NCBI GenBank assembly: GCA_002733945.2
Contig: NVXO02000006.1
Span: 21,777 to 31,232, forward strand
DNA: 9,456 bases
DNA from: Sulfurimonas sp.
Lineage (GTDB): Bacteria > Campylobacterota > Campylobacteria > Campylobacterales > Sulfurimonadaceae
Direction: 5' to 3'
The notes under the pieces were generated by a model. That model searched no databases, had not been told where the DNA came from, and saw only the letters and a list, made by a program, of their open reading frames with translations. The translations under genes were made by a program, and so were the position numbers. Positions 2,820-7,922 of the stretch are shown in pieces; within the stretch, counting starts at the first letter, position 1; every line of letters begins with the position of its first letter.

Positions 2820-2830
2820 GACTATATGAG

Positions 2831-2836
2831 TAGAAT
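2831..2836 (+). promoter_or_regulatory. Candidate -10 box of the znu operon promoter
   Basis: TAGAAT is one mismatch from TATAAT and lies between the two operator-like repeats. Transcription from it would begin near 2843, six bases before operator 2, and give a leader of about 34 nt to the GTG start at 2877. No -35 box is recognisable, because that position lies inside operator 1. A repressor bound to both repeats would bracket this promoter. Confidence 0.35.
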
Positions 2837-2848
2837 TACACTTATAAA

Positions 2849-2863
2849 TGCAACTAGGTCGCA
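2849..2863. promoter_or_regulatory. Operator-like palindrome 2 (putative Zur box)
   Basis: TGCAAC-TAG-GTCGCA is an imperfect palindrome: the complement of GTCGCA is TGCGAC, which matches TGCAAC at five of six positions. Including the flanking AAA on the left and AAA on the right, it matches the corresponding 21 bases of palindrome 1 at 16 positions, counted by eye. It ends two bases before the ribosome binding site of znuA (AAGGA, 2865-2869). This supports the GTG at 2877 over the ATG at 2826 as the znuA start, because the operator would otherwise be inside the coding region. Confidence 0.6.
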
Positions 2864-2876
2864 AAAGGATAATAAA

Positions 2877-4142
2877 GTGTTCAAACAAATTATGATAAGT
2901 GGATTATTTGGGATAAGTAGTTTGTTATATGCCCAGGTTAACATAGTTGTCAGTATTTTACCCCAACAAACATTTGTCGAGAAAATTGGTCGTGATAAAG
3001 TTCATGTCACTACCATGGTACAACCTGGAAAAGATCCACACTCGTATGAGCCAAAGCCTTCTCAGATGGTTGCCCTCTCAAAAGCACAGGTATATTTTCC
3101 AATCAAGATAGGGTTTGAAAATGTTTGGCTTCAAAGGTTTTCACAACACAATCAAAAAATGAAATTATCTGATATGACAAAAGGTATAAGGTTTATTAAG
3201 ATGGCAAAACATAGCCATTCGCATAAGAAAAAATCTAATATACATTATGAGTGGATGGGTGTTTTTCAATTACAAAAAGGGATATACCATTGGAGTTTTT
3301 CAAAAGTATCTGGGGATTATACTGATCCATCCATAAAATTTTTAATGATTCAAGCCACAAAAAATAGTGATGCGCTGATAGAAATGTATGAGCATCAAGC
3401 TGTTCAACTATTTAATGAAGGAAAAACACTTTTTGCCAATGACAAGGACACCCTTAATACAAATGATGGATTGTATCAACTACAGTTAAATGAAACAAAA
3501 GATCAAACAATTTTTAGGCTTGATATTAAAAAAAGTGGAAAATATTTATTTTTTACAGAACATATGCCTTTAGAGTTTGTTGACAAGGTGCATTACTTCA
3601 AAGATATGAAAAAAAATGATATTGTGCCCATCCAAACAAAGCCAAAAAATGATATGGGACTCGATCCACACACATGGACCTCACCTTCAAATGTAAAAAT
3701 TATGGCTAAAAATATTTATGACACCTTAGTAGATATTGATAATAAAAATAAAGCATACTATAAAAAAAATTATGAAAAGTTTTTACGAGAGATTGCACAA
3801 ACTGATGAAAAGATAAAAAATATTTTATCATCACTTCAGAAGAAGTCAAAGTTTATGGTTTTTCATCCATCTTGGGGTTATTTTGCTAAAGAGTATGGAT
3901 TAATTCAGTTAGCTATTGAAGTAGAGGGGAAAGCACCAAAATTAAGAATGTTAGAAAAAATAATTAAAGAGGCAAGAAAAGAGAATGTGAAGGCTATATT
4001 CGCACAAAAAGAGTTTTCAGATAAAAGTGCTAAAGCAATCGCTAATGAGTTAAATATAAAAGTATTAAAAGAGACCCCTTTAGCAAAAAATTGGTCAGAA
4101 AACTTAATCAAGATGGCAAAGGCAATTGCAAATAATGGCTAA
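2877..4142 (+). CDS. znuA: Zinc ABC transporter substrate-binding protein ZnuA with an inserted extra domain
   Basis: ZnuA is the periplasmic zinc-capturing component of the ZnuABC importer. I place the start at GTG 2877: a good ribosome binding site (AAGGA, 2865-2869) lies seven bases upstream, and translation then begins directly with a signal peptide (M-F-K-Q, hydrophobic 5-17, likely cleavage after YA at 18-19). An ATG at 2826 gives a longer frame but puts operator 2 inside the gene. Family motifs are DPHSYEP (metal His55), DPHTW (His265) and FHPSWGYF (His330). The residue usually Asp in the C-terminal DPLA motif is Thr400. The protein has 421 residues against roughly 300 for ordinary ZnuA. 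The excess is one block between the His-rich HSHSH (112-116) and DPHTW. It is the first gene of an operon; znuC begins inside its last codons. Zur-type repression is inferred from the operators. Confidence 0.92.
   Translation: MFKQIMISGLFGISSLLYAQVNIVVSILPQQTFVEKIGRDKVHVTTMVQPGKDPHSYEPKPSQMVALSKAQVYFPIKIGFENVWLQRFSQHNQKMKLSDMTKGIRFIKMAKHSHSHKKKSNIHYEWMGVFQLQKGIYHWSFSKVSGDYTDPSIKFLMIQATKNSDALIEMYEHQAVQLFNEGKTLFANDKDTLNTNDGLYQLQLNETKDQTIFRLDIKKSGKYLFFTEHMPLEFVDKVHYFKDMKKNDIVPIQTKPKNDMGLDPHTWTSPSNVKIMAKNIYDTLVDIDNKNKAYYKKNYEKFLREIAQTDEKIKNILSSLQKKSKFMVFHPSWGYFAKEYGLIQLAIEVEGKAPKLRMLEKIIKEARKENVKAIFAQKEFSDKSAKAIANELNIKVLKETPLAKNWSENLIKMAKAIANNG
3246..3632 (+). other. Nested extra domain inside the ZnuA metal-binding loop
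   Basis: Residues about 124-252 of ZnuA interrupt the loop that normally runs from the His-rich stretch directly to the second metal ligand. The block starts YEWMGVFQLQKGIYHWSF and continues with KVSGDYTDPSIKFLMI. It then has a helical, acidic middle, a strand pair around GLYQLQLNETKDQTIFRLDI, and ends with SGKYLFFTEHMPLEF. The alternating hydrophobic pattern suggests a beta-rich fold. Histidines at 123, 138, 173, 229 and 239 and several acidic residues could bind metal. It lacks the ZinT (YodA) motifs, so it is not the known ZnuA-ZinT fusion. I have a weak memory of similar insertions in other ZnuA-like proteins but cannot name the family. Confidence 0.7.
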
Positions 4143-4878
4143 AAATATCATAGAAGTTTCAGAGCTAAATTTTTCTTATGAAAAGCAAAGTGTATTAGAA
4201 TGTATAGACTTTACAATTAAAGAAAAAGAGTTTGTTGCCATTATTGGACCAAATGGTGGTGGAAAATCTACACTGTTAAAACTTTTATTAAATATAAACA
4301 CTTTACAAAAAGGCGCTATCACTATACAGGGTGAAGATTATTTAAAACAGACACATAATATTGGGTATGTTCCACAAAATACAGATATTAATATTAATTT
4401 CCCTATCAGTGTACTTGAAGTGGTTATGATGGGTCAAAACAGTTTGAAAAAAAGAATTTTTGGCTATAAGAAAGATGAAAAAGCCCAGGCTAAAAAGGCA
4501 TTAGAACAAGTTGGTATGTCTGAATTTTCTTTTAAATCAATCTCAGAGCTCTCTGGCGGTCAGAGGCAAAGGGTTTTTATAGCAAGAGCACTTTTCTCTA
4601 ATCCTAAGATATTACTACTTGATGAACCCACCTCAAGTATTGATGCTAGTGGATCGCAACAGATCTATAAAACATTAAAAGCATTAAGTAAGCATATTAC
4701 TGTAATTGTTGTAAGTCATGATATTTCTGTCATTGTACAGTATGCTACAAGGGCCTTTTATATAAACAAGAAATTATTTAATCACGACCTAAAAAACATG
4801 AAAAAAGATTTTTTAAAAAACAATGCACATATATGTGAAATTGAGCTTTTAGAGATGTTAGGAAGTTGTAGATGCTAG
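4135..4878 (+). CDS. znuC: Zinc ABC transporter ATP-binding protein ZnuC
   Basis: ZnuC is the ATPase that powers zinc import through ZnuB. All nucleotide-binding motifs are intact in the 247-residue protein: Walker A GPNGGGKST (38-46), the Q-loop YVPQNTDI, the ABC signature LSGGQRQR, Walker B ILLLDEPTSSID and the switch histidine in VVSHD. The ATG at 4135 is preferred; it overlaps the last codons and stop of znuA (ATGGCTAA), which suggests translational coupling. A TTG nine bases upstream (4126) would add three residues and sits only three bases after an AAGG, so it is less likely. The 7 nt overlap with znuB fits a tight transporter operon. Manganese importers use closely related ATPases, so zinc specificity rests on the Fur-family regulator, ZnuA and the COG0523 neighbour. 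Confidence 0.93.
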   Translation: MAKNIIEVSELNFSYEKQSVLECIDFTIKEKEFVAIIGPNGGGKSTLLKLLLNINTLQKGAITIQGEDYLKQTHNIGYVPQNTDININFPISVLEVVMMGQNSLKKRIFGYKKDEKAQAKKALEQVGMSEFSFKSISELSGGQRQRVFIARALFSNPKILLLDEPTSSIDASGSQQIYKTLKALSKHITVIVVSHDISVIVQYATRAFYINKKLFNHDLKNMKKDFLKNNAHICEIELLEMLGSCRC

Positions 4879-5684
4879 AAACACTTTCATACTCTTTTAT
4901 TCAAAATGCTATTATCGCAGCTGTTTTAGTAAGTATTATCACAGGTATTATAGGCAGTTTAGTAGTAGTTAACAAGATGGTATTTTTATCTGGTGGAATT
5001 GCGCATAGTGCTTATGGCGGAATTGGTCTAGCAATTTTTTTTGGATTACCTATGCTTCTTTGCACCTCATTATTTTGTGTTTTTGTCACTATTATCATTG
5101 CCTTAGCAAGTTATAAAAGAAGAGAGCATTTGGATATTCTGATCGGTCTTACTTGGGCGCTTGGCATGTCTCTTGGTATTATCTTAGTTGATCTAACACC
5201 TGGATATCAATCTGATTTGATGAGTTATCTTTTTGGCTCATTATTAGCGGTAACAACAAATGATATTTTATATATGTCCATACTCTTGGCTTCTATTATT
5301 GGGATTGTTTTCACCTTTTATAGGGAAATCTTGTCGGTGTCATATGATACAGAGTATGCAACACTTAGAGGAGTAAAAACAAGACTTTTTTATACCATTA
5401 TTTTGGTTTTATCAAGTCTAACCATTGTGGTGTCCATCAAAGTCGTTGGACTTATTTTAGTCATTGCACTCTTAACCATTCCCATTTACGTCGCAGGTTT
5501 CTTTTCAAAAAGTTTGTTCTCCATGATGGTGAGCGCAGCACTTTTATCAATGTTTTTTTCTACTATAGGCTTGTTTTTATCCTATAACTTTGATTTAAGT
5601 TCGGGGCCATCGATTATTATTGTCAGTTCAGTTTTTGCTTTATTAGCCTTTCTTATAAAAAACTTAAAAGAGTACATACAATGA
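4872..5684 (+). CDS. znuB: Zinc ABC transporter permease ZnuB
   Basis: ZnuB is the inner-membrane channel subunit of the ABC-3 family that works with ZnuC and ZnuA. The 270-residue protein is mostly hydrophobic, with about seven or eight membrane segments beginning at residues 9-31. The region from about 170, containing VVSIKVVGLILVIALLTIPI, is the conserved cytoplasmic coupling loop and following helices of this family. SGGIAHSAYGGIGLAIFFG (about 40-58) matches the early signature of the family, usually written SGGISHAAYGGIGL-like. The start overlaps znuC by 7 nt and the stop overlaps the next gene by 4 nt (ATGA), so all of these genes are very likely translated from one message. An AGGA ribosome binding site lies at 4859-4862. 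No frameshift or truncation was seen. Confidence 0.93.
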   Translation: MLETLSYSFIQNAIIAAVLVSIITGIIGSLVVVNKMVFLSGGIAHSAYGGIGLAIFFGLPMLLCTSLFCVFVTIIIALASYKRREHLDILIGLTWALGMSLGIILVDLTPGYQSDLMSYLFGSLLAVTTNDILYMSILLASIIGIVFTFYREILSVSYDTEYATLRGVKTRLFYTIILVLSSLTIVVSIKVVGLILVIALLTIPIYVAGFFSKSLFSMMVSAALLSMFFSTIGLFLSYNFDLSSGPSIIIVSSVFALLAFLIKNLKEYIQ

Positions 5685-6235
5685 ATATTATTAATAATTT
5701 AATCAATTTAATTTATGAAAAGACTTCGATTAAGGTCTCAAGAGCAGAAGGTGTCTTTACACGATTTGGTATGTATCAAGTTAAAGCCTACAAAGATAGT
5801 GAAAGAGAGTATCTGGTACTTATGAGCCAAAATTTTTTTGAGCTTAAAACGCCTATTGTTCATATCTTTTCTGCACTTCATGTATGTGGATCGAGCATGC
5901 ATCAGATGTACTTAGCGATGCAAATGATTTCTAAAGAAGGTGGTGTAGTTATTTACCATAGTGATAATGGAAGTAATATAGACACATTACTTTATAAAAT
6001 AAATATGAAAAAAGTTCAAACTACAAAGAGTGTCAGAAGAAAAGCTAAGAAAAAGCCCGGTATAAAAGTACCTTACAAAGAGTATCGTACCTTGGGTTTT
6101 ATATTCACCGACCTTAATCTTACAAGGATAAAACTAGTATCAAATGATCTCAAGACTACCCAAGTAATACAAGAGCTAGGAATAGAAATCACAGCTAAGG
6201 TGTCCGCGATTTCAACTGTATATAGTGAAGAATGA
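5681..6235 (+). CDS. Degenerate GTP cyclohydrolase II (RibA-like) paralogue without the zinc cysteines
   Basis: This 184-residue protein is a clear paralogue of the next gene. Both share the pattern AYKD, MS-x-NFFEL, I-x-KEGG-x-x-IYH and DL-x-L-x-x-IKL. Real RibA binds zinc with C-x10-C-x-C and acts through QEGR-x-IGL and D-x-x-EAN. Here the cysteine segment is five residues shorter and reads ALHVCGSSMHQM, leaving His67, Cys69 and His74. The QEGRNIGL segment has become DNGSNIDTL, the EAN region is replaced by a strongly basic stretch (about 110-130), and TNNP has become SNDL. Catalysis of the RibA reaction is therefore unlikely. It overlaps znuB by 4 nt, so it belongs to the zinc operon. It could be a non-catalytic partner of RibA, a metal-binding accessory protein or a different enzyme on the same fold. 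The role is unknown. Confidence 0.8.
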   Translation: MNIINNLINLIYEKTSIKVSRAEGVFTRFGMYQVKAYKDSEREYLVLMSQNFFELKTPIVHIFSALHVCGSSMHQMYLAMQMISKEGGVVIYHSDNGSNIDTLLYKINMKKVQTTKSVRRKAKKKPGIKVPYKEYRTLGFIFTDLNLTRIKLVSNDLKTTQVIQELGIEITAKVSAISTVYSEE

Positions 6236-6289
6236 AGCATTTATCATTGTGTATTATTATTGACTACAAAAAATTTAAAAAGAGAAAAT

Positions 6290-6868
6290 GTGCAAAAATA
6301 TGAAAAATCAGATATAGCAACCTTACCCTCTAAGTACGGTAATTTTACAATAAGGGCTTATAAGGATGGGTGTCAAGAGCACCTAATAATTATGAGTAAA
6401 AACTTTTTTGAACTTGAAGTGCCTTATGTCAGAATACATTCTGAATGTTTAACGGGTGATGCATTTGGTAGTTTAAAATGTGATTGTGGAAATCAACTCT
6501 CTACTGGGCTAAAACTCATTCAAAAAGAGGGAGGATTACTTATTTATCATCGACAAGAGGGACGAAATATAGGGCTTGTTAATAAAATTAATGCGTATAA
6601 GCTTCAAGATAAAGGGCTAGATACTATTGAGGCAAATTTGGCACTAGGATTTAAAGAAGATGAGCGAGACTATAGTGTAGTTTCTGAAATTTTTAAAGAC
6701 TTAGAACTACGAAAGATAAAGCTCATTACAAACAACCCAGATAAAATCGAGTACATCAAGAGTTTACAAGTTGAAATCGTTCAGATTGTACCCTTAATTA
6801 CTGTAGTTAACGAATATAATAAAAATTATTTGGATGTTAAAAAAGAATCTATGGGGCACTATTTATAA
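6290..6868 (+). CDS. ribA: GTP cyclohydrolase II
   Basis: RibA opens the imidazole ring of GTP to give the pyrimidine precursor of riboflavin, formate and pyrophosphate, and needs one zinc ion. The zinc ligands are intact as C53, C64 and C66 (SECLTGDAFGSLKCDCG). The catalytic YHRQEGRNIGL, the KINAYKLQDKGLDTIEAN region and TNNP are also present, and the protein ends with the normal MGHYL. I prefer the GTG at 6290, which gives 192 residues and a start like that of E. coli RibA (LPSKYGNF at 12-19), with an AAAGAGAA ribosome binding site just upstream. A TTG at 6260 would add ten residues. It follows the degenerate paralogue after a 54 nt gap and is probably in the same operon. A cell needs riboflavin always, so another ribA or ribBA probably exists elsewhere. 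Confidence 0.93.
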   Translation: MQKYEKSDIATLPSKYGNFTIRAYKDGCQEHLIIMSKNFFELEVPYVRIHSECLTGDAFGSLKCDCGNQLSTGLKLIQKEGGLLIYHRQEGRNIGLVNKINAYKLQDKGLDTIEANLALGFKEDERDYSVVSEIFKDLELRKIKLITNNPDKIEYIKSLQVEIVQIVPLITVVNEYNKNYLDVKKESMGHYL

Positions 6869-6947: not shown

Positions 6948-7922
6948 ATGATACACGCGTTTATTATTACAGGATTTTTAGGTTCGGGCAAAAGTACACT
7001 ACTTACCGATACGGTCAAAAAACATTTCAAGGACAAAAATATTGCCATAATTGTAAATGAATTTGGCGAAGTGGGTATTGACCAAACTATACTCAAAAAT
7101 GTGCATAGTGATGTGATTCAAATATCTGATGGTTGCATCTGTTGTCAATTATCTGAGGAGTTTGAAAGTGGTGTTATTGAAATTATAAATAAGTTCAATC
7201 CTGACATCATATTTGTCGAAACAGCTGGAATTACAGAACCTTTTCCAATTTTCATGTCAATGCAAAACCTTGGTCTTATTGTTGATGGTGTTATATGTGT
7301 CGTTGATGCAAAAAATTATGCTTCTTATATGCATAACTCTACAGCAAAGTACCAAGTAGGTGGTGCAAATATCATTGTTCTTAATAAAACCGATTTGACC
7401 ACACAAGAAGAGCTTGCGCAAGCCAAAAAAGATATTACAGTTATCAAAGAAGAGTTTAATATTAAAAGCAACTTTACAGGTAAAACAGTATTTAATAACT
7501 ACTTTTTACATACTATAGAGAGGGGTATCCTTAATAAAGAGGTCTTTGAAGGTGTTTATCAAGTAGAAGAAATTGTAGGACTGGCAAAGGAATATCACCA
7601 TACAGATCACATTACAAATGATTCAATCATACAAAAGATTGCAAAAATTAATAGAGAAGTTTGTTTTAATGAAGTTGATTCCCTGCTAAATAACCTTCCT
7701 CGCAATATTTATAGAGCTAAAGGCATTATTAAGATGCAAGATGTTTTGAAACCTTTAGTCGTAAATTACTCATTTGGAAATGTCACATTTGAAGAGCTAG
7801 ATCAGTTTGAAGAGGACTCTATTTTTGTTTTTATAGGCGAAGATATAGATAAAGATGTTATCGAACTTGCTAAGAAGTTTGATTATTTAAATGTATTTGC
7901 ACACGAACACCACCACCATTAA
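6948..7922 (+). CDS. COG0523 (CobW/ZigA/ZagA-type) GTPase, putative zinc metallochaperone
   Basis: COG0523 proteins are G3E-family GTPases that insert metals into client proteins; those under Zur control act in zinc starvation. This 324-residue protein has Walker A GFLGSGKST (9-17), the diagnostic metal motif GCICC (62-66), the ETAG segment and the base-recognition motif NKTD. The C-terminal domain contains HHTDH (217-221) and the protein ends in HEHHHH (319-324), both plausible zinc sites. A strong ribosome binding site (AAAAGGA, 6935-6941) lies six bases before the ATG. The 79 bp gap from ribA contains no clear promoter, so the gene may be read through from the znu operon or have its own weak promoter. 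RibA is an attractive client, because it is a zinc enzyme encoded next door, but this is inference. Cobalamin-related CobW is less likely in this setting. Confidence 0.9.
   Translation: MIHAFIITGFLGSGKSTLLTDTVKKHFKDKNIAIIVNEFGEVGIDQTILKNVHSDVIQISDGCICCQLSEEFESGVIEIINKFNPDIIFVETAGITEPFPIFMSMQNLGLIVDGVICVVDAKNYASYMHNSTAKYQVGGANIIVLNKTDLTTQEELAQAKKDITVIKEEFNIKSNFTGKTVFNNYFLHTIERGILNKEVFEGVYQVEEIVGLAKEYHHTDHITNDSIIQKIAKINREVCFNEVDSLLNNLPRNIYRAKGIIKMQDVLKPLVVNYSFGNVTFEELDQFEEDSIFVFIGEDIDKDVIELAKKFDYLNVFAHEHHHH

Follow-up and report, generated by a model that had tools for sequence, protein, structure and literature searches.

The stretch of DNA analysed here (9,456 nucleotides of Sulfurimonas sp., positions 21,777 to 31,232 of contig NVXO02000006.1, assembly GCA_002733945.2; hereafter the window) raises the question of why a zinc-uptake operon should carry, immediately ahead of an intact gene for the GTP cyclohydrolase II RibA, a second RibA-related gene whose product appears to lack the corresponding active site. 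The gene in question, here named DEG, encodes a protein of 184 amino acids (aa) within the + strand order znuA, znuC, znuB, DEG, intact RibA, and COG0523 GTPase; the window is located on one contig (C10) of a 2.34-Mb genome (G000) and contains no ambiguous bases. Judged by sequence, DEG represents a new conserved family of pseudoenzymes with a strong gene-level link to a single clade of COG0523 GTPases. We tentatively propose, as a plausible reading that falls short of being probable, that DEG is a dedicated zinc acceptor or adaptor of its COG0523 GTPase and would transfer zinc to RibA or gate the loading of RibA.

Kinship with RibA and the active-site positions

The features on which this part of the argument depends are the following.

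5681 to 6235, + strand: DEG, 184 aa, without a GTP cyclohydrolase II site (open reading frame, Pfam match, alignment, 62-row family, and predicted RibA fold)
5879 to 5902, + strand: codons for His67 to His74 of DEG, holding the H-x-C half of the rebuilt metal loop, with the C-x-C half absent
6260 to 6868, + strand: intact RibA, canonical at the checked zinc cysteine and catalytic positions (open reading frame, Pfam match, and alignment)

The start codon of DEG lies within the 3′ end of znuB, the two genes overlapping by ATGA (znuB stop at 5684), and 24 nucleotides separate DEG from the RibA frame, for which a GTG at 6290, behind AAAAAGAGAAAAT, may be an alternative start. This arrangement of an intact 184-aa frame, overlapping znuB and followed by an intact RibA paralogue, is as the original prediction, a note made from the letters of the window alone, had described it. 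The same genome encodes two further RibA-type proteins: a second canonical RibA on contig C22 and, on contig C19, a RibB-type protein that matches RibA in part.

That DEG is a relative of RibA, as had been claimed, is supported by its match to the Pfam model GTP_cyclohydro2 (52.5 bits, versus 190.4 bits for the neighbouring RibA), by an identity of 35% to that neighbour, and by a single-chain structural model with a predicted RibA fold, whose fold relatives include the RibA structures 4rl4 and 2bz0 and the RibX-domain structure 6mnz. The cut-offs of the NCBIfam RibA models are missed (TIGR00505, 39.4 of 205.85 bits; PRK00393, 53.5 of 148 bits). None of the three zinc cysteines of RibA, which we take to be residues 54, 65, and 67 of the Escherichia coli enzyme, stands at its position in the window protein, and the equivalents of E. 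coli Tyr105, Arg128, and Lys154, presumably catalytic or substrate-contacting residues, are Lys, Lys, and Thr. Across 37 aligned DEG rows, the first zinc cysteine and the equivalents of Tyr105, Lys154, and Arg98 are retained in none, that of Asp126 in 3, and that of Arg128 in 12, whereas all 25 canonical rows have the RibA residue at every position scored as lost (E. coli numbering). Most DEG rows have likewise lost the C-terminal tail as well as the SECLTGD and DTIEAN motifs. In the window protein, QEGRNIGL has become DNGSNIDTL and KSVRRKAKKKPG occupies the position of DTIEAN, both as originally reported; the basic stretch falls within a low-confidence part of the model (residues 114 to 127). 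The proposal that the GTP cyclohydrolase II site has been lost thus extends to the family, and DEG is best described, from its residues, as a pseudoenzyme. All DEG genomes searched also carry a canonical RibA.

The DEG family and its metal loop

A single-sequence search of 5.8 billion proteins recovered the query alone, and a first scan of genome contigs with DEG gave no matches. The idea of DEG as an orphan was nevertheless rejected, as two clear orthologues (53% and 42% identical) emerged when 398 genomes of the order were searched in six frames, a profile built from three sequences brought in more than 30 further members ahead of a drop in score to canonical RibA (among the 120 hits listed of 135), and others were added by a second profile. 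The resulting alignment (A6) holds 62 rows, two of them fragments. In the tree, 37 DEG rows form one side of a branch with a Shimodaira-Hasegawa-like approximate likelihood ratio test support of 100, opposite 71 canonical RibA rows; the fragments P0019 and P0112 were left out of the tree and its alignment (A5), P0133 and P0143 duplicate L078 and L132, and the members from P0121 onward, identified later, are absent from the tree. The family also bears marks of its own, including an inserted Asp (Asp101 in the window) and a Ser at the position of RibA Arg98, each in 58 of the 62 rows, and a Tyr ahead of the loop in 60, which is His in the window. Among the papers listed by full-text searches of the open-licence literature, in which RibA or GTP cyclohydrolase II was combined with one of Zur, COG0523, RibX, and pseudoenzyme, or Zur or COG0523 with names of Campylobacterota, none described the family in its title or the beginning of its abstract.

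As read from the alignment, the zinc loop of this family has been rebuilt rather than dropped. Both halves of an H-x-C...C-x-C arrangement occur in order in 47 of 62 rows, with H-x-C present in 49 loop segments and C-x-C in 58; by column, the His of H-x-C is conserved in 52 rows and the Cys in 56. The first Cys is shifted three columns downstream of its position in RibA and is preceded by the His two residues ahead, and Cys and His together make up 22% of the loop segment versus 2.5% of the remainder of the proteins. Six rows (P0034, P0037, P0144, P0145, L078, and L132) are devoid of the moved Cys, and all six have at least one extra His there.

The window protein retains His67 and Cys69 of this loop, and its C-x-C is gone. 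The original prediction had pointed to the absence of the three positional cysteines and to His67, Cys69, and His74 standing as H-x-C-x4-H, and these residues are indeed present; they were not gained as a unit in this protein, since H-x-C is a feature of the family, C-x-C has been lost, and His74 is variable (its column holds 31 N, 17 H, 8 Y, 3 D, 2 S, and 1 K in the 62 rows). The window cluster is therefore best seen as half of an inherited motif: conservation across homologues holds for His67 and Cys69 and fails for His74 as a ligand, and H-x-C-x4-H was rejected as a family motif. The deletion at the zinc site, given as five residues, amounts to seven by MAFFT (20 residues, H60 to Q79, in the paralogue; 13, F63 to Q75, in the window protein).

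The gene is rare and patchy. DEG was found in at least 3 of 228 genomes of the window's own family (G000, G519, and G028), where the other loci returned were canonical, and in at least 2 of 22 and 5 of 175 genomes of families f7 and f6, respectively; these are minimum counts, since the scores of divergent members approach those of canonical RibA. It evolves faster than its neighbours, yet it is constrained. Among six DEG genes, 8 of 15 pairs gave a usable ratio of nonsynonymous to synonymous substitution rates (dN/dS) of 0.17 to 0.49, the remaining 7 being saturated; the usable values for the COG0523 and RibA neighbours were 0.07 to 0.12. For the window gene and that of L065, dN/dS was 0.26 at a dS of 1.42, near saturation, with differences of 0.37, 0.23, and 0.49 at the three codon positions. 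The end branch of the window protein (0.69) was not flagged for length, while the protein keeps 30 of the 37 positions conserved in the family, a share that ranks third from the bottom among 37 rows and weighs against constraint. The view that DEG is maintained is upheld by the family-wide His67 and Cys69, the family's own marks, and the usable dN/dS values. Little was seen of the random residues and relaxed selection expected of a decaying duplicate.

The COG0523 neighbour and the presumed Zur box

Ten distinct loci were compared, comprising the window (W), L065, L066, L078, L131, L132, L161, L162, L163, and L165, and a COG0523 GTPase gene is the constant neighbour of DEG in all of them. It is adjacent to DEG in eight, in which the two are divergent, and one gene away in the other two: in L165 it is divergent with a dihydroorotase-like frame intervening, and in the window it lies on the strand of DEG, past RibA. 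Ten regions surrounding RibA genes that have no DEG, annotated by the same method, contained no COG0523 gene. In a tree of COG0523 proteins, the ten DEG-linked GTPases, which come from three families, are separated by one branch (100/100) from 22 others, of which 17 came from f6 genomes without DEG and 5 were second copies from DEG genomes, this comparison set being drawn from f6 and G000 only. The last 40 residues contain 3 to 20 Cys and His in nine of the ten linked GTPases and 2 in the tenth, versus 0 to 2 in the others. A second COG0523 protein of G000 (L075:3575-4567, contig C19), 59% identical and encoded directly ahead of the RibB-type gene, falls outside the linked clade.

The remaining features of the window are as follows.

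6948 to 7922, + strand: COG0523 GTPase with cobW and CobW_C domains, a CICC motif, and a His-rich end, a member of the DEG-linked clade
2382 to 2756, - strand: Fur-family regulator, presumed Zur
2797 to 2817, no strand: presumed Zur box (binding inferred), a palindrome ahead of znuA that differs from AAATGCAANNNNNTTGCATTT by 2 mismatches
2846 to 2866, no strand: further copy of this palindrome, weaker, with 4 mismatches
2826 to 4142, + strand: znuA; a GTG at 2878 may be an alternative start
4126 to 4878, + strand: znuC (open reading frame and domain matches)
4872 to 5684, + strand: znuB, overlapping DEG by ATGA

The Fur-family gene is upstream of and divergent from the operon, and its product reached the cut-off of no NCBIfam model. 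ZnuA contains a long insert that we take to be reminiscent of ZinT; Pfam gave ZnuA alone.

A palindrome, AAATGCAA-N5-TTGCATTT, was found with 0 to 2 mismatches at all ten DEG loci and is presumably a Zur box. Between DEG and the COG0523 gene it occurs without mismatches in L065, L066, L078, L132, and L161, with 1 in L131 and L163, and with 2 in L162; in L165 it is located ahead of the DEG-containing run (1 mismatch) and in the window ahead of znuA (2 mismatches). Because the pattern was derived from L065, L066, L078, L131, and L132, only W, L161, L162, L163, and L165 test it. None of 2,000 shuffles of 165 nucleotides, in which base composition alone was kept, had fewer than 3 mismatches. For the window by itself, 53 of 200 dinucleotide shuffles contained a match at up to 3 mismatches, so that the window copy is not above chance, and genome-wide in G000 the same threshold gave 43 matches versus 22 for a reversed control, with six places at 2 mismatches. 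At up to 2 mismatches the palindrome also occurs in zinc or RibA loci without DEG (L069, L071, and L134 to L137), and none was present in the HisI-RibA loci L068 and L133.

Several other genes recur in these clusters. HisI-RibA fusions (L065:7947-8855, L066:10088-10990, L069:6822-7781, and L133:6650-7561) lie in several cases within zinc-uptake clusters; that of L065 matches PF01502 and PF00925, and HisI and RibA are both zinc enzymes. In L165 (L165:2106-4865), a dihydroorotase, the DEG relative, RibA, and HisI are clustered behind presumed Zur boxes, bringing several zinc-enzyme paralogues together. His-rich proteins of 117 to 118 aa with Cys are encoded in two clusters (L065:11896-12252 and L078:8647-9000), the former without a Pfam or NCBIfam match. 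A 454- to 489-aa protein recurs in zinc loci (L161:13036-14505, L071:3207-4601, L136:2551-3915, and L137:2103-3527), and its L161 version matches NicO and DUF1007. In L132, the DEG relative and a second Fur-family gene are followed by what we take to be a GTP cyclohydrolase I (folE)-like gene (L132:5830-6417). Such a second Fur-family gene, encoding 139 to 147 aa, is found in six of the ten clusters, in some of which the presumed Zur gene was additionally seen.

L131:6711-7142, L132:6481-6924, L161:7407-7835, L162:10861-11304, L163:4789-5226, and L165:5918-6337: second Fur-family gene

Candidate roles and known systems

Because the RibA residues are lost and one COG0523 clade is nearby in ten loci, DEG likely aids this GTPase in delivering or rationing zinc. 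Taken together, the location in a zinc locus, the distinct GTPase clade, the RibA fold devoid of its active site, and the Cys/His loop suggest the zinc acceptor or adaptor proposed above. Zinc scarcity would cause Zur to release the operon; the COG0523 GTPase would then load zinc onto the H-x-C...C-x-C loop of DEG, acting as a mimic of the client, and DEG would dock on RibA through its RibA-like fold, possibly as a mixed dimer, and either hand over the zinc or limit it. As its C-x-C half is gone, the window protein would be more of a docking or gating part than a strong zinc carrier. A more specific version, possible but doubtful, is that the dead RibA mimics the client: the fold of the enzyme served would have been turned into a zinc acceptor, kept with its own, mostly His-tailed, COG0523 clade, so that in zinc starvation GTP cyclohydrolase II would receive zinc or be denied it.

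Of these steps, the link to the GTPase is the best supported and RibA as the final target the weakest, and several observations weigh against the proposal. An extra intact RibA is present in only four of the ten clusters, W, L165, L065, and L066, the last two as HisI-RibA fusions; the other six genomes have one canonical RibA each, to which G704 adds a distant RibA-like stretch within a 791-aa frame. RibA was consequently demoted as a constant partner of DEG, and although a link to zinc is supported, as is the original suggestion that DEG may be a partner or a zinc sensor or donor, pairing with the downstream RibA is not general. For P0005, P0007, P0015, and P0026, longest contigs of equal size among the matches listed suggest linkage to a canonical RibA. 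Strong zinc binding is unlikely to be universal in the family, as the window protein, P0003, and P0019 are without C-x-C and P0024 retains a single Cys of the pair, and in the model of an intact-site member the loop has a predicted local distance difference test (pLDDT) score below 50. The divergences of DEG and its GTPase correlate modestly (r = 0.49; p = 0.06), and in family f6, where 22 of 175 genomes have a COG0523 match at an E value of ≤1e-100, the ranking in which the five best matches come from exactly the five DEG genomes was made with a query from a DEG genome. According to the available text on the Anabaena system discussed below, all attempts to demonstrate interaction of the COG0523 protein with its threonyl-tRNA synthetase (ThrRS) neighbour failed (PMC4787780).

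An unlikely alternative is that DEG carries no zinc and forms mixed dimers with RibA that tune its activity, as RibX does for RibB. The retained fold and the canonical RibA of every DEG genome searched fit such a regulatory subunit, as does a window member without C-x-C, and mixed dimers of apo-T1 and T2 ThrRS are described as forming in low zinc in Anabaena (PMC4787780); the Cys/His loop kept in most members and the tie to a single COG0523 clade would, however, go unexplained, and an extra RibA accompanies DEG in four clusters only. It is quite unlikely that DEG catalyses a new reaction, or uses another metal, and so stands in for a zinc enzyme in zinc starvation, in the manner of Zur-linked paralogues without zinc ligands, given the loss of the Tyr105, Lys154, and Arg98 equivalents from all 37 rows and of Asp126 from all but 3, the missing C-terminal tail, and the supply of an intact, Cys-bearing RibA in those same four clusters. 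The Cys/His loop and the second Fur-family gene, which overlaps DEG by 4 nucleotides in L132, would fit a zinc-binding buffer or sensor that signals to the nearby Fur-family regulators or saves zinc for them, but we consider this role very unlikely, as one site per 184-aa protein makes a poor store, four of the ten clusters have no second Fur gene, and neither the RibA fold nor the constant GTPase clade is explained. Decay of the window member alone, within an otherwise functional family, is highly improbable: the lost C-x-C, the low share of conserved positions, and the poorly modelled basic stretch speak for it, and the intact, unambiguous frame, the coupling to znuB, the unremarkable end branch, and the codon-position and dN/dS values (the latter near saturation) speak against it.

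If DEG does act as a zinc acceptor or adaptor of its GTPase, zinc rationing would be tied to flavin synthesis and a pseudoenzyme with a rebuilt metal loop would act as a metal-delivery part; the client-mimic version would represent a two-gene metal-delivery module of a new kind. The clients of many COG0523 GTPases are still open, and here one clade has a constant neighbour that resembles a zinc enzyme without its site. For Staphylococcus aureus ZigA, the accessible portion of a 2026 study states that a high-affinity client was not identified (PMC13339975).

Among known systems, RibA itself (PF00925; 4rl4 and 2bz0) resembles DEG in sequence, above the Pfam cut-off, and in predicted fold, and differs in that the window DEG lacks the positional zinc cysteines, has altered catalytic positions, contains an inserted Asp, and has lost the C-terminal tail. 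RibX, reported in the sections available to be an inactive RibA-like domain capable of regulation (PMC10012899), is fused to RibB (RibBX; 6mnz), whereas DEG stands alone in zinc loci and in most members has a rebuilt Cys/His loop. An established class, from what is available of Haas et al. 2009 (PMC2770081), comprises Zur-linked paralogues that lack zinc ligands and lie beside COG0523 genes, and DEG likewise is a zinc-enzyme paralogue in a zinc cluster with the canonical ligands missing; unlike them, it has a rebuilt site and is linked to a single GTPase clade. The name RibA does not appear in that paper (0 occurrences), and a review table, seen in excerpt, includes a Zur-linked ribA in Vibrio cholerae and hisI2 in Pseudomonas protegens (PMC6103462). 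The Anabaena ThrRS T2, as far as the available text goes, is a low-zinc paralogue that is co-transcribed with a COG0523 gene and forms mixed dimers with the housekeeping enzyme (PMC4787780), and it differs from DEG in being an active zinc enzyme rather than a predicted pseudoenzyme. By analogy, the nearest precedent for the proposed mechanism is Bacillus subtilis ZagA, described in the portions available as interacting with FolE (PMC10882993 and PMC13339975): there, a COG0523 protein serves a GTP cyclohydrolase under low zinc, but FolE is of type I, active, and differently folded, while DEG appears to be an inactive relative of type II.
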